This document shows positions 3,739 to 24,593 of a stretch of DNA of 39,544 bases, in pieces. The first letter of the stretch is position 1. Every line of letters starts with the position of its first letter. The translations under genes and the position numbers were made by a program. The notes under the pieces are model-generated. The model had not been told where the DNA came from, did not search any database, and saw only the letters and a program-made list of their open reading frames with translations. The DNA is from Bacteroidota bacterium. GTDB taxonomy: Bacteria; Bacteroidota; Bacteroidia; Palsa-948. The stretch spans positions 1 to 39,544 of the forward strand of contig PLUL01000074.1 of NCBI GenBank assembly GCA_003164895.1. The letters run 5' to 3'.

Positions 3739-3771
3739 TACGAAAAACGAATTTGTACGAATTTACGAATG
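3739..3771 (+). repeat. Octamer-type TACGAAWW repeat overlapping a start codon
   Basis: Reads TACGAAAA, ACGAATTTG, TACGAATT, TACGAATG in succession: four imperfect copies of a roughly 8-bp unit. The last three bases of the final unit are the ATG of the next gene (3769). Related units in opposite orientation precede rsmE (12122-12155) and follow this gene (4516-4530). Confidence 0.7.
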
Positions 3772-4485
3772 AAAAAACTTCTTTGCTTTTTTTTTCTACT
3801 ATCTAATATCTCACATCTAACATCTGTTTTCTCACAGGAAAATATTTACACTGTTGGTTTTCAGATCAAGCCGATGCTCGTAAGTTCATTTTTTAATACT
3901 GGAAAAGGAGAAGTAATTCAAAGAAATATTGACTTTTCTGTTTTGCAACAGTCGGGCTATTGCGGTGGAATGATTATTAGAAGAGGATTCACAAAAAGAT
4001 TTTCAATGGAATTCGGAATCAATTATGTGAAAAGAAATTATTCGCTCACACTAAAGGATTCTACCTTCACCGATAAATCACATTTTACAATAATTGGCTA
4101 TGAAGTTCCTGTGATGGGAATGATTTTTCTTAGAGTTGCTCCGAAAATATTTATGACTACCGGATTTGGTTTGTCGTGCGATATGTATCCTTCGGATGTT
4201 GAAACGTCTGATGATTATTTTCAACATTATTCTCAGCGACATTCAATGTTTCAGAGCGCGGTGCTCGCCAATCTTGCTTATGAATTACGCACCGAGAAAA
4301 GCGGTTACTTTAATATTGGCGCATCGTATCATTTACCTTTTACAAATATTTATTATACAAATATTAAATTTTTACCTACTAATATTGTGCAAATGAAACT
4401 GCCCGGCAATTATCTCACTATTGATTTTCGCTACTTCTTTTACGAAAAACCGATGAAACCTAAGAAAGAAAAAAAGAAGAAATAG
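3769..4485 (+). CDS. Outer-membrane beta-barrel protein (PorT-like size)
   Basis: A 238-aa protein with a signal peptide (KKLLCFFFLLS...VFSQ) followed by alternating amphipathic strands rich in Tyr/Phe and Gly, as in the small porin-like barrel families of Bacteroidota. It ends in an unusual lysine tail (PKKEKKKK) after the last strand. The start at 3769 puts the signal peptide at the N-terminus; the frame extends upstream to 3700 but would overlap icmF. It lies 34 bp after icmF and could be co-transcribed, though no functional link is apparent. Part of the signal peptide is encoded by a 7-bp tandem repeat (3801-3828). The specific ligand or partner is unknown. Confidence 0.7.
   Translation: MKKLLCFFFLLSNISHLTSVFSQENIYTVGFQIKPMLVSSFFNTGKGEVIQRNIDFSVLQQSGYCGGMIIRRGFTKRFSMEFGINYVKRNYSLTLKDSTFTDKSHFTIIGYEVPVMGMIFLRVAPKIFMTTGFGLSCDMYPSDVETSDDYFQHYSQRHSMFQSAVLANLAYELRTEKSGYFNIGASYHLPFTNIYYTNIKFLPTNIVQMKLPGNYLTIDFRYFFYEKPMKPKKEKKKK
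3801..3828 (+). repeat. Heptamer tandem repeat inside signal-peptide codons
   Basis: Four consecutive 7-bp units: ATCTAAT, ATCTCAC, ATCTAAC, ATCTGTT. They encode part of the hydrophobic signal peptide (SNISHLTSV) of the barrel protein that starts at 3769. Confidence 0.75.
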
Positions 4486-8900: not shown

Positions 8901-9288
8901 AATTTGGATTGTTGAGTTCCGTTTGGTAATGAGTAAATTTTTTCAGCATCGGGTTGTAGGCATTCAATCCGCCATCGTGCGTGCCCACCCAAATAATTCC
9001 TTTGCTGTCCTCGTACAAATATTCGATCCAATTATCCGAGAGTGAATTTGTATCGGAAGCATCGTGTTTATAAACCACCATGCCATAACCATCGTATTTA
9101 TTCAAACCATCCTGAGTTCCAAACCACAAGTATCCTTTTTTATCCTGAAGAATGCAATTCACCGATGCCTGAGAAAGACCTTGTTCAGAACCAATGCGAG
9201 TGAATTTTACATCCTGAGAAAAAGATGGTATAAGGTATATGGTATAAAGTATAAGGTATGATACAAATCGGTGCAATCGAATTTTCAT
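5971..9288 (-). CDS. Beta-propeller sensor / SpoIIE-type (PP2C) phosphatase, SiaA-like
   Basis: A 1105-aa membrane sensor. Order: signal peptide (ends SFSQ), about fourteen regulator-propeller repeats of the type GYLWFGTQDGLNKYDG forming two periplasmic propellers, a Y_Y_Y domain (to about residue 790), one membrane helix (NIFYIFCVLFTVAFVFGF), a coiled coil (KKILEQKVAERTAELAQKN, then SSIQYAKRIQQAILP), and a cytosolic PP2C domain with metal-binding motifs DIVSGDFYW, VDCTGHGVPGAF, SDGFAD and QVDDV. It replaces the histidine kinase of hybrid two-component propeller proteins with a Ser/Thr phosphatase. By analogy to SiaA it should dephosphorylate the nearby SiaC-like protein in response to an extracellular cue. 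The codons for the start and signal peptide are built from short repeats (9226-9304). Confidence 0.9.
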   Translation of the reverse strand: MKIRLHRFVSYLILYTIYLIPSFSQDVKFTRIGSEQGLSQASVNCILQDKKGYLWFGTQDGLNKYDGYGMVVYKHDASDTNSLSDNWIEYLYEDSKGIIWVGTHDGGLNAYNPMLKKFTHYQTELNNPNSISNDIIKCIHEDKNGTYWIGTNYGLNTFDGKTNKFEKYFHEEGDTTLLSGFRVETIYEDKKGRLWIGTHDGGLNLFNPAQKTFHCYLDESIGKESQYYNRIKTITEDESGILWITTDNGGLASFNPETKKYLQRFTYDGNPNSKGILDNRISSVCFDDKKVLWIATKSEGIFCYRKNENIFSHFRNNDYDFQSLSNDVVNCIYMDKQNNIWIGTEAGGINVYFPNAARFKHYHKDITNENEFQSNTIFSITEDREGLIWAGTLQGGITTINRATNTYKNFGNGTPTSLSRAKNNSVLSLFEDKDGLIWVGTWGGGINTYDKKTGKINCIMESDAVTCIAQGNGHLIWIGVYGRGKGLFAYNKETQSMTNFTADDGLSSNDINCIYEDKNRNIWIGTAGGGLNKLNLSNSKEKKCSVKIYKYEKGRNSLSNNTVNCIYDDEKGNLWIGTSNGFDKFDIKKETFTHFYEKDGLPNSNIWGILGDKKGNFWISTNKGIARFNPNIENKEGNAFKSFTTRDGLQGDEFNQGSYFQNKKTDEMFFGGLNGFNSFYPDDIADNNHIPPVYITSFKKFGKETELDTSISDKKNLELSYKDNFISFDFVSLDYTFSAKNKYSFMMEGLDNDWSPPSPRKYVSYTNLPGGDYTFRIRASNSDGVWNEKGVELHIKVIPPWWKTNIFYIFCVLFTVAFVFGFIRYRTSAIQKEKKILEQKVAERTAELAQKNKDITSSIQYAKRIQQAILPTREQIQKHFPESFVLFKPKDIVSGDFYWFGEKNGRKIAACVDCTGHGVPGAFMSMIGTNLLNQIILEDGITDAAAILSALNQGVRSALKQGVRNEIETTDGMDIALCSIDSNAREVQFSSALRHLIVISENKITKIVGNKFPIGGAQLDTERIFTNHLINPNKGDMIYMFSDGFADQFGGDKGKKFMIKQLHELLLSVNNLPLKEQSALLEKTLEDWKGNHSQVDDVLVIGIRV
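9226..9260 (-). repeat. Heptamer tandem repeat encoding a signal-peptide core
   Basis: On the coding (minus) strand: CATACCT, TATACTT, TATACCA, TATACCT, TATACCA, five exact 7-bp periods. They encode the hydrophobic core SYLILYTIYLIP of the propeller/phosphatase signal peptide. Because 7 is not a multiple of 3, the peptide repeats every three units. Confidence 0.85.
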
Positions 9289-9304
9289 CTGTGTAATCTG
9301 TGCT
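9266..9304 (-). repeat. GATTACACCGATT / TACACAGAT repeat spanning a start codon
   Basis: Contains AATCGGTGCAATC (9266-9278), one mismatch from the inverse of GATTACACCGATT found at 24503, 24528 and 37002. It also holds two 9-bp units ATCTGTGTA and ATCTGTGCT (9287-9304). The ATG at 9288 overlaps the first 9-bp unit. Confidence 0.6.
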
Positions 9305-12160: not shown

Positions 12161-12913
12161 ATGAATCTTTTTTATCATCCGGAAATAAACAATTTACAAA
12201 CCATCATTCTTTCAGAAGAAGAATCTACTCATGCAATTCGTGTGCTGAGAATGAAGGCAGGCGATGCAATTTTTATGACTGACGGAAAAGGAATGTTTTA
12301 TGAAGCGGAGATTATTTACGACAATTCAAAAAAATGTCTTGTAAAAATTGTAAAATCTGTTGCTGATAAGTCGAAAAGAAATTTTCATCTGATCATTGCC
12401 ATTGCTCCAACAAAAAGCATTGACCGCTTTGAATGGTTTCTTGAAAAAGCAACGGAGATTGGATGTGATGAAATTATTCCTATTTCCTGTAAACATTCCG
12501 AAAGAACCAGTATAAAAGCTGAGCGCTTGAATAAAGTGATTGTATCTGCAATGAAACAATGTTTAAAATCCCAACTTCCTAAATTAAATGAACTAAAGGA
12601 TTTTAAAATCTTTATTGAATCAACAAAACAATTTTCCGGACAAAAATTTATTGGACATATTCCTGAAGTTTCAGAATCTAAATTTCCGCCACAGAATCCA
12701 AATGGAAAACCACTTTCAAAATCCTTAATCCTTAATCCTAAATCCCAAATTTTGATTTGTATCGGTCCCGAAGGAGGATTTTCTGAAGATGAGGTAGCAC
12801 TCGCGATCCAAAATGGTTTTACATCCATCAGTTTGGGAAACTCGCGCCTGAGGGTTGAAACAGCCGGAGTGGTAGCTTGCAGCGTGGTGAATATGATGTA
12901 TTTAGAACAATGA
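12161..12913 (+). CDS. rsmE: 16S rRNA m3U1498 methyltransferase
   Basis: A 250-aa SPOUT-class enzyme that methylates N3 of U1498 in 16S rRNA. The N-terminal PUA-like domain contains HAIRVLRMKAGD. The C-terminal knot motifs are clear: IAPTKSIDRFEWFLEKATEIG, then CIGPEGGFSEDE and the SAM-binding LGNSRLRVETA. An extra stretch before the GPEGGF strand (KPLSKSLILNPKSQ) is encoded by a 7-bp repeat and is not part of the usual family core. The start fits the family's beginning (MNLFYHPEI). Confidence 0.94.
   Translation: MNLFYHPEINNLQTIILSEEESTHAIRVLRMKAGDAIFMTDGKGMFYEAEIIYDNSKKCLVKIVKSVADKSKRNFHLIIAIAPTKSIDRFEWFLEKATEIGCDEIIPISCKHSERTSIKAERLNKVIVSAMKQCLKSQLPKLNELKDFKIFIESTKQFSGQKFIGHIPEVSESKFPPQNPNGKPLSKSLILNPKSQILICIGPEGGFSEDEVALAIQNGFTSISLGNSRLRVETAGVVACSVVNMMYLEQ
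12717..12752 (+). repeat. Heptamer tandem repeat inside rsmE
   Basis: About five periods of 7 bp: (C)AAAATCC, TTAATCC, TTAATCC, TAAATCC, CAAATTT. Read in frame, they encode SKSLILNPKSQI just before the conserved IGPEGGF strand. Confidence 0.8.
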
Positions 12914-23815: not shown

Positions 23816-24502
23816 ATGATGAAAAAGATTACCCCATTAATTATTCTTTTCTTCGCAGCAAATTTTATTCATGCTCAATCTTTTGAAAAAGGCGATCGCA
23901 TTTTTGATGTTAACCTTGGGCTTACTGTTTCTAATTTAACGGTAAAAGATAATCAGAAAACCGGCGACACAGCTTCAAAAGGGAAAGCTGCCTGCACTGT
24001 TCTTGCTCCTGCAATGGAGTGGGCGGTAGGCAAACGCATCAGCATTGGAACTTCTCTTGTGTATAGCAGTTATTTATCTAAAAAAGATTCGTCAGGATAC
24101 AAGCCGTCAGCTAAAGGATTGGACGGAAATTTTATTTTCAACTTTCATTTTGTGAAAAGCAAAAGCGTGGATTTGTTTCTCGGGCTTCGACTTGGGCTTG
24201 CCGGATTTCGCTATAATCCTAATGACGGCTCTAAAGCAATTTATGGTTCTATGGGTAGCGCGTTTGATTTGCATCTGGGCGGCAGATTTTATGTTTCGCG
24301 CCGCGTAGGAATTTTATTCAACATGGGTGTGCCAAGTTACACGTTTAAGAAATTCGGTTACAGTTTGGCTTATACTTATACGCTCAAAGAAAGCGGATTT
24401 TATATCGGTACAGGAATTGCCATAAAACTCGGCAAGAAACAAACCGAAGCTATCCCTACATCTGCTACACCTGCTCCAACAGATGATAAAAAGTTTCGCT
24501 GA
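23816..24502 (+). CDS. Outer-membrane beta-barrel protein
   Basis: A 228-aa protein with a signal peptide ending FIHAQS, then strand-rich sequence with alternating hydrophobic residues and glycine turns, ending in a barrel strand (SGFYIGTGIAIKLGKK) and a short Pro/Thr tail. Two adjacent ATG codons (23816 and 23819) are possible starts. A -7-like TATTTTTG lies at 23792-23799. No specific ligand can be named. Confidence 0.7.
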   Translation: MMKKITPLIILFFAANFIHAQSFEKGDRIFDVNLGLTVSNLTVKDNQKTGDTASKGKAACTVLAPAMEWAVGKRISIGTSLVYSSYLSKKDSSGYKPSAKGLDGNFIFNFHFVKSKSVDLFLGLRLGLAGFRYNPNDGSKAIYGSMGSAFDLHLGGRFYVSRRVGILFNMGVPSYTFKKFGYSLAYTYTLKESGFYIGTGIAIKLGKKQTEAIPTSATPAPTDDKKFR

Positions 24503-24584
24503 GATTACACCGATTTTATAAAACACAGATTACACCGATTACGTTGTTGCGTTACCATCGGTGGAATCTTTTTTAAATCTGTGT
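24503..24584. terminator. Repeat-derived inverted repeat / convergent terminator
   Basis: Two direct copies of GATTACACCGATT (24503-24515, 24528-24540). The second copy pairs with ATCGGTGGAATC (24557-24568, one mismatch), followed by TTTTTT. An outer pair ACACAGATT (24523-24531) / AATCTGTGT (24576-24584) extends the structure. It lies between a plus-strand barrel gene and minus-strand ndk and probably ends both transcripts. Confidence 0.6.
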
Positions 24585-24593
24585 AATCAAAAT

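Follow-up and report, generated by a model that had tools for sequence, protein, structure and literature searches.

Heptanucleotide arrays in the coding sequence of predicted signal peptides in a genus of Bacteroidota

The 39,544-nucleotide stretch analysed here (contig PLUL01000074.1, positions 1 to 39,544; hereafter the window) comes from a Bacteroidota bacterium and carries a gene whose export signal and translation start both appear to be made of short repeats. How do such repeats come to encode these parts of a protein, and is the gene an isolated case? The gene encodes a two-component-regulator-like sensor/phosphatase with Pfam matches to Reg_prop (E-value 2.7e-69), Y_Y_Y (1.9e-16) and SpoIIE (6.8e-15), and its ATG lies at position 9288; the initial annotation had the gene and the coordinates right. 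The N-terminus, MKIRLHRFVSYLILYTIYLIPSFSQ followed by DVKF, looks like a signal peptide, and its residues fit the Sec-type features (a basic n-region, a hydrophobic core, and cleavage followed by Q, or a lipobox) on visual inspection and under a simple hydropathy rule. The cleavage point before DVKF is our own reading; it is consistent with the Q-rule, according to which Bacteroidota signal peptides usually end before Q or D (PMC5837995).

The hydrophobic core, SYLILYTIYLIP, is encoded by five heptamers that are arranged head-to-tail without gaps and read CATACCT, TATACTT, TATACCA, TATACCT and TATACCA on the coding strand (Table 1). The initial annotation had described five exact copies of TATACCW that encode the core; the assignment to the core holds and the five tandem heptamers are present, but only three match TATACCW exactly and the other two carry one mismatch each. 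Tandem Repeats Finder calls the same interval independently (period 7, 4.7 copies, 84% matches), and the 13-mer TATACCTTATACC, with up to two mismatches, matches the window five times against 0.52 expected, four of the matches falling in the array. The call and this excess indicate that the array is not a product of chance. An Rfam scan of the window returned tRNA only.

The leader, the start codon and the first codons were said to be covered by a neighbouring 9-bp/13-bp repeat family. A dispersed repeat is indeed present there, separate from the heptamer array, but it is more aptly regarded as pieces of a palindromic intergenic element than as a 9/13-bp tandem repeat. The element is about 125 bp long with arms GATTACACMGATT...AATCKGTGTAATC; it forms 24 clusters in 720 kb of the own genome compared with 2 in shuffled sequence, 21 of the 24 lie outside coding DNA, and few copies are found in the sampled sister species. 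The sequence CACAGATTACACAGATG at 9286-9302 is a member of it, with 3 matches in the window where 0.10 are expected. The fragment at 9262-9302, CACAGATTACACAGATGAAAATTCGATTGCACCGATTTG on the coding strand, aligns with L067:7619-7654, an arm of one copy of the element, over 36 bases at 86% identity, with a score of 47 compared with at most 29 for the shuffled leader. The ATG sits where other copies of the element commonly read GATTTT. One arm of the element is the source of the start codon and the basic n-region, separately from the heptamers. The suggestion that mobile or expanding short repeats had supplied export and start sequence is supported, with "expanding" suited to the heptamers and "mobile" to the element at the start codon.

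Table 1. Features of the window and related loci. Positions without a locus prefix are those of the window.
Feature	Position	Strand	Basis
Second signal-peptide heptamer array, unit near ATCTAAC, in gene 3769-4485 (MKKLLCFFFLLSNISHLTSVFSQ)	3795..3825	plus	
Reg_prop/Y_Y_Y/SpoIIE gene, 1105 aa	5971..9288	minus	ORF call and Pfam
Predicted signal-peptide coding segment (n-region, h-region, cleavage region)	9214..9288	minus	Translation; predicted cleavage site
Heptamer array of the hydrophobic core	9226..9260	minus	Sequence inspection and Tandem Repeats Finder
Array unit TATACCA	9226..9232	minus	
Array unit TATACCT	9233..9239	minus	
Array unit TATACCA	9240..9246	minus	
Array unit TATACTT	9247..9253	minus	
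Array unit CATACCT	9254..9260	minus	
Fragment (one arm) of the dispersed palindromic intergenic element, supplying leader, ATG and codons 4-8	9262..9302	minus	Family matches and alignment
AATCCTT/AATCCTA array encoding SLILNPKSQ, in a coding loop of the RNA methyltransferase at 12161-12913 (Pfam Methyltrans_RNA, PUA_4)	12720..12750	plus	
More complete intergenic copy of the palindromic element	24499..24592	.	Family matches
Other copies of the palindromic element	L042:1547; L065:5990; L071:9727, 11312, 12124; L077:17520		
C-terminal YPNP...IYN arrays	L066:17309; L048:1266; L054:17860; L205:8859; L287:6554; L274:9099-10880		

Period-7 arrays in signal peptides are a genus-wide pattern that involves dozens of exported proteins, and the reported array is one case of it. 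Stretches that sample 720 kb of the own genome, about 22% of the total, contain 39 period-7 arrays with many different units, whereas Markov shuffles contain 3. Periods 4-6 and 8-13 yield 0-9 arrays each, and periods 14 and 21 are themselves multiples of 7. In this sample 17 arrays lie in signal peptides, from which about 75 are predicted for the entire genome. The location of the arrays was determined in 1.63 Mb from four sister species, with one genome per species, simple ORF calls, and signal peptides called by a crude hydropathy rule rather than a trained predictor. Signal-peptide DNA contains 39 arrays in 49 kb, the starts of genes without a signal peptide contain 1 in 72 kb, the remaining coding DNA contains 44 in 1338 kb, and upstream or intergenic DNA contains 39 in 173 kb. 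Signal-peptide DNA is thus enriched about 20-fold relative to other coding DNA and about 3.5-fold relative to intergenic DNA (p = 7e-29 for the signal-peptide share of arrays; p = 7e-8 against intergenic DNA).

Searches for single words gave the same picture. Exact TATACCTTATACC occurs at three places in the whole own genome, namely the reported gene, a lipoprotein signal peptide and a segment of a membrane protein; with mismatches allowed, four of the six array loci of this type are signal peptides (C7:9227, C19:158609, C19:17144 and C80:8020). In the first of two blind checks, on both strands of all seven genomes of the genus, (TATTGGC)3 with at most one mismatch is found at 15 distinct loci; all 15 encode LLAIGYWLLA as the h-region of signal peptides, and none is in intergenic DNA. 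For (TTCT[GT]GC)3 on both strands of the same seven genomes, 17 of 20 distinct loci are signal peptides, and the other three fall in coding or near-coding loops or segments: a loop of a MurC-like gene, read by eye, where the opposite strand encodes PEARSQK; the strand opposite a lipoprotein-like N-terminus just past its lipobox, also read by eye; and a membrane-protein-like segment. A genome-wide search for heptamers near the starts of secreted proteins, which the initial annotation had proposed, is therefore strongly positive.

The same proposal extended to orthologs, and within the genus their signal peptides differ, two of them being built from other heptamers. The ortholog of the reported gene in genome G004 uses TTCTGTC units, while that in G001 (L014) uses TGTTTAT/TGTCTAT units interrupted in frame by a GC-rich hairpin, CCGCCCTTGGCGAGGCTCGCCCTTTTGGGCGG; no clear heptamer array was found in the orthologs of G006 and G003. 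Distant orthologs with the same residues but no repeat, which would have pointed to chance composition, were not seen. In the own genome the h-region of a TPR lipoprotein consists of TTCTTGC units; the corresponding units are TTCTGGC in G005, TTGTACT in G006, TTGTACA in G002 and TTTTTAC in G003, with a degenerate core in G004 and G001. Throughout the series, n-region and lipobox (SSCSQKKNT) are conserved, and the signal peptide has 23-25 residues in all orthologs. TTCTTGC and TTCTGGC differ by one base that is repeated in every unit, which points to homogenisation within the array. In 17 of the 74 sampled pairs of signal-peptide orthologs, one or both proteins show a strong array; both members have an array in 9 of the 17, and the consensus unit is identical in none. 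Some units are conserved: TATTGGC is common to two pairs between the own genome and G005, and a DUF1573 lipoprotein uses TATACCT both in the own genome and in L135, where the protein is 79% identical. Orthologs thus keep the signal peptide, often keep an array, and frequently use a different heptamer. The signal peptide at L261 also carries a hairpin (CCTCTCCTGTGGAGAGG), and that at L242, the G006 ortholog of L080, is built from the octamer ATTGTTTT where the own genome uses TATTGGC.

We propose, with a probability of roughly 0.7, that slippage-prone heptanucleotide microsatellites have been recruited and re-homogenised as signal-peptide cores in a lineage-specific manner. Such microsatellites would be taken up repeatedly to encode parts of proteins for which only composition matters. 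As the initial annotation had pointed out, gain or loss of units alters the reading frame except when three are gained or lost at once, and this arithmetic is right. The annotation did not mention that, since 7 mod 3 is 1, all three frames of a heptamer array free of stop codons translate into one and the same cyclic heptapeptide, so that an array can supply an h-region in any register. By computation, stop codons are absent from about 69% of heptamers, 10% encode hydrophobic, uncharged peptides, and the hydropathies of sense and antisense translations are anticorrelated (r = -0.71). Pyrimidine-rich sense units give uncharged hydrophobic peptides (YTLYLIP, YWLLAIG, FWLLASG and FLLLASC) that make up h-regions, and the opposite strand tends to give charged hydrophilic ones (ARSQKPE and STKYKVQ) that make up n-regions, linkers and surface loops. 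The heptamer-encoded signal peptides would function in export. Units would mutate, slippage would homogenise or replace them, and selection would act as a filter on frame, length and hydrophobicity; replacement under such selection would leave orthologs often with an array in the same place but in a different word. Because other periods that are not divisible by three share the frame property, the preference for seven over five or eight must be mutational. According to Mrazek et al. (2007), as reported by MacGregor (2015; PMC4679880), no other repeat class is as abundant as heptanucleotides in the majority of genomes, and polymerase slippage was proposed as the cause, which makes slippage the most likely generator. 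The homogenised units of orthologs give indirect support to a possible variation in unit number by slippage.

Hydrophobic signal peptides in an AT-rich genome may look repetitive by composition alone, because their complexity is low and L, I, F and A predominate. This explanation is practically negligible. In 260 signal-peptide segments, 15 lag-7 arrays are present compared with 0.9 after synonymous-codon shuffling, and other lags give about 0; the removal of the arrays by synonymous shuffling shows that the periodicity lies in the DNA and is not a by-product of the peptide. The mean lag spectrum over all signal peptides has z = 4.9 at lag 7, but lags 1, 3, 4, 14, 15 and 28 are also raised; averaging is therefore a weak test and array counts were used instead. 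In addition, the units run through all three codon phases, and no period-7 arrays were found in E. coli (50 kb) or in three other families of the class (40-80 kb each). The heptamers could instead be sequence-specific binding sites for RNA- or DNA-binding factors near gene starts, as proposed for the TAACTGA repeats of Beggiatoaceae, which also occur in Cyanobacteria and Bacteroidetes, sporadically and near gene starts in some genomes (PMC4679880). Those repeats and the heptanucleotide repeats of Mrazek et al. (2007) resemble the arrays described here in being tandem 7-bp units of the most abundant period class and in being known from Bacteroidetes. Some arrays of the genus precede a gene by at most 60 nt (16 in 55 kb of the four sisters), and in two loci of Patescibacteria (L101 and L147) (TATACCT)n directly precedes the start codon of an mraZ-like and a tsaD-like gene. 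In contrast, TAACTGA-type repeats are mainly intergenic, use one unit and, read forward, place stops in all frames, whereas the units of the genus are many, mostly stop-free and located inside signal peptides and loops, with most near-start arrays past the start codon. A unit that differs between genes and between orthologs does not form a fixed conserved site, and we consider the binding-site explanation very improbable.

Phase variation offers a further explanation, in which arrays would be maintained because frame shifts switch surface proteins, as at the Neisseria opa genes, where CTCTT pentamers in the leader-peptide code switch expression (PMC3960869, PMC3899988). The arrays of the genus occupy the same place in the gene, their unit length is likewise no multiple of three so that a change in unit number shifts the frame, and perfect arrays of 4-5 copies are common (e.g. 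L042:13680 and L080:6903). However, equal occupancy of the states would put two thirds of the arrays out of frame, and no out-of-frame alleles came to light when arrays of the own genome and of four sisters were checked frame by frame, with the proviso that consensus assemblies can hide minority alleles; genes with a signal-peptide array but no ATG have an in-frame GTG or TTG, or else are not signal peptides. Unlike in opa, the units are 7 bp long, vary by gene and species and occur in many unrelated genes, including housekeeping types (the TPR lipoprotein and NamZ); many arrays, the reported one included, are degenerate; and arrays also occur in cytosolic loops (MurC and the RNA methyltransferase), where switching makes little sense. 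We therefore hold phase variation to be improbable. Copying of array tracts between signal peptides by ectopic recombination or template switching, by which a genome amplifies favourite words, is unlikely, yet slippage alone fails to explain why TATTGGC occupies nine loci of the own genome, all in different genes, compared with 0-3 in six sisters and none in three of them. TTCT[GT]GC is also uneven, with 6 loci in G004 and 0 in G003. These counts hint at copying between loci, although TATTGGC was chosen for its abundance in the own genome. Loci that share a unit differ in their n-regions and flanks, which indicates that only the array itself could have moved, and the same-position difference between TTCTTGC and TTCTGGC points to homogenisation in place.

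Recruitment and re-homogenisation of slippage-born heptamers is thus the reading that we prefer. A tentative extension is that signal peptides form an evolvable, repeat-generated module, in which a process that generates heptamers would keep rewriting the h-regions of about one in fifteen exported proteins, genome-specific words may pass between genes, and an export signal may arise from one expansion in any frame. Heptanucleotide repeats are also tied to surface-protein genes in Haemophilus influenzae, where they occur at hmw promoters and TonB-dependent receptor genes (PMC2651432). The cited repeats are mainly upstream, with 13-38 copies at hmw, whereas the arrays of the genus have 3-5 copies and lie within the DNA that encodes the signal peptide. 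Both heptanucleotide repeats and a repeat in a leader peptide have been described before, but no report of heptamer-built signal peptides, or of a recurrent, species-specific code for many of them, was found in the open-licence literature searched. The genus would be a lineage in which the origin of new signal peptides can be read directly from DNA. It would be a case of frame-independent microsatellite translation used repeatedly as an export signal, in which the protein stays but species often differ in the word, and it links a mutational process, heptamer slippage, to protein targeting in a testable form. Heptamer arrays also account for unusual peptides that recur in these proteins, among them YWLLAIGYWLLA and LLASGFWLLASG.

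The taxonomic distribution of the pattern is narrow. At least 120 stretches of public genomes, from many phyla, contain exact (TATACCT)3, mostly in non-coding DNA. A phylum-wide trait was considered and rejected, as 3 of the 395 genomes in the phylum contain exact (TATACCT)3 and other sampled families have few or no arrays. The concentration in signal peptides is found in the reported genus and is absent from the other families sampled. Signal-peptide enrichment was not seen in other taxa that bear (TATACCT)3 either, where the other arrays in the flanks are mainly intergenic. One signal peptide made of TATACCT was found outside the genus, at L108.

Arrays are also present outside the cores of signal peptides. 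Mean hydropathy is +1.0 for signal-peptide arrays, a class that is hydrophobic by definition, and -0.8 for interior coding arrays (p = 1e-8), which sit in loops and linkers and tend toward the hydrophilic-encoding orientation. One such array lies in the lipoyl-domain linker of an E2-like subunit. Others lie in C-terminal loops that show the YPNP...IYN pattern of type 9 secretion sorting domains by motif reading, and heptamers are therefore present at both ends of exported proteins. In a LuxE-like protein, one internal site carries an array in two species, with CAAATCT and CAGTCGT as the respective units. Different units at the same internal site were also observed in other orthologous proteins (L050:9679 and L208:15503; L042:2940 and L296:2571). 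The purine-rich heptamers AAAAGGC, AAGGCAG and GTTACAA encode basic n-regions of signal peptides (L068:16800, L202:3412 and L050:6083), the strand-opposite counterpart of the hydrophobic cores.
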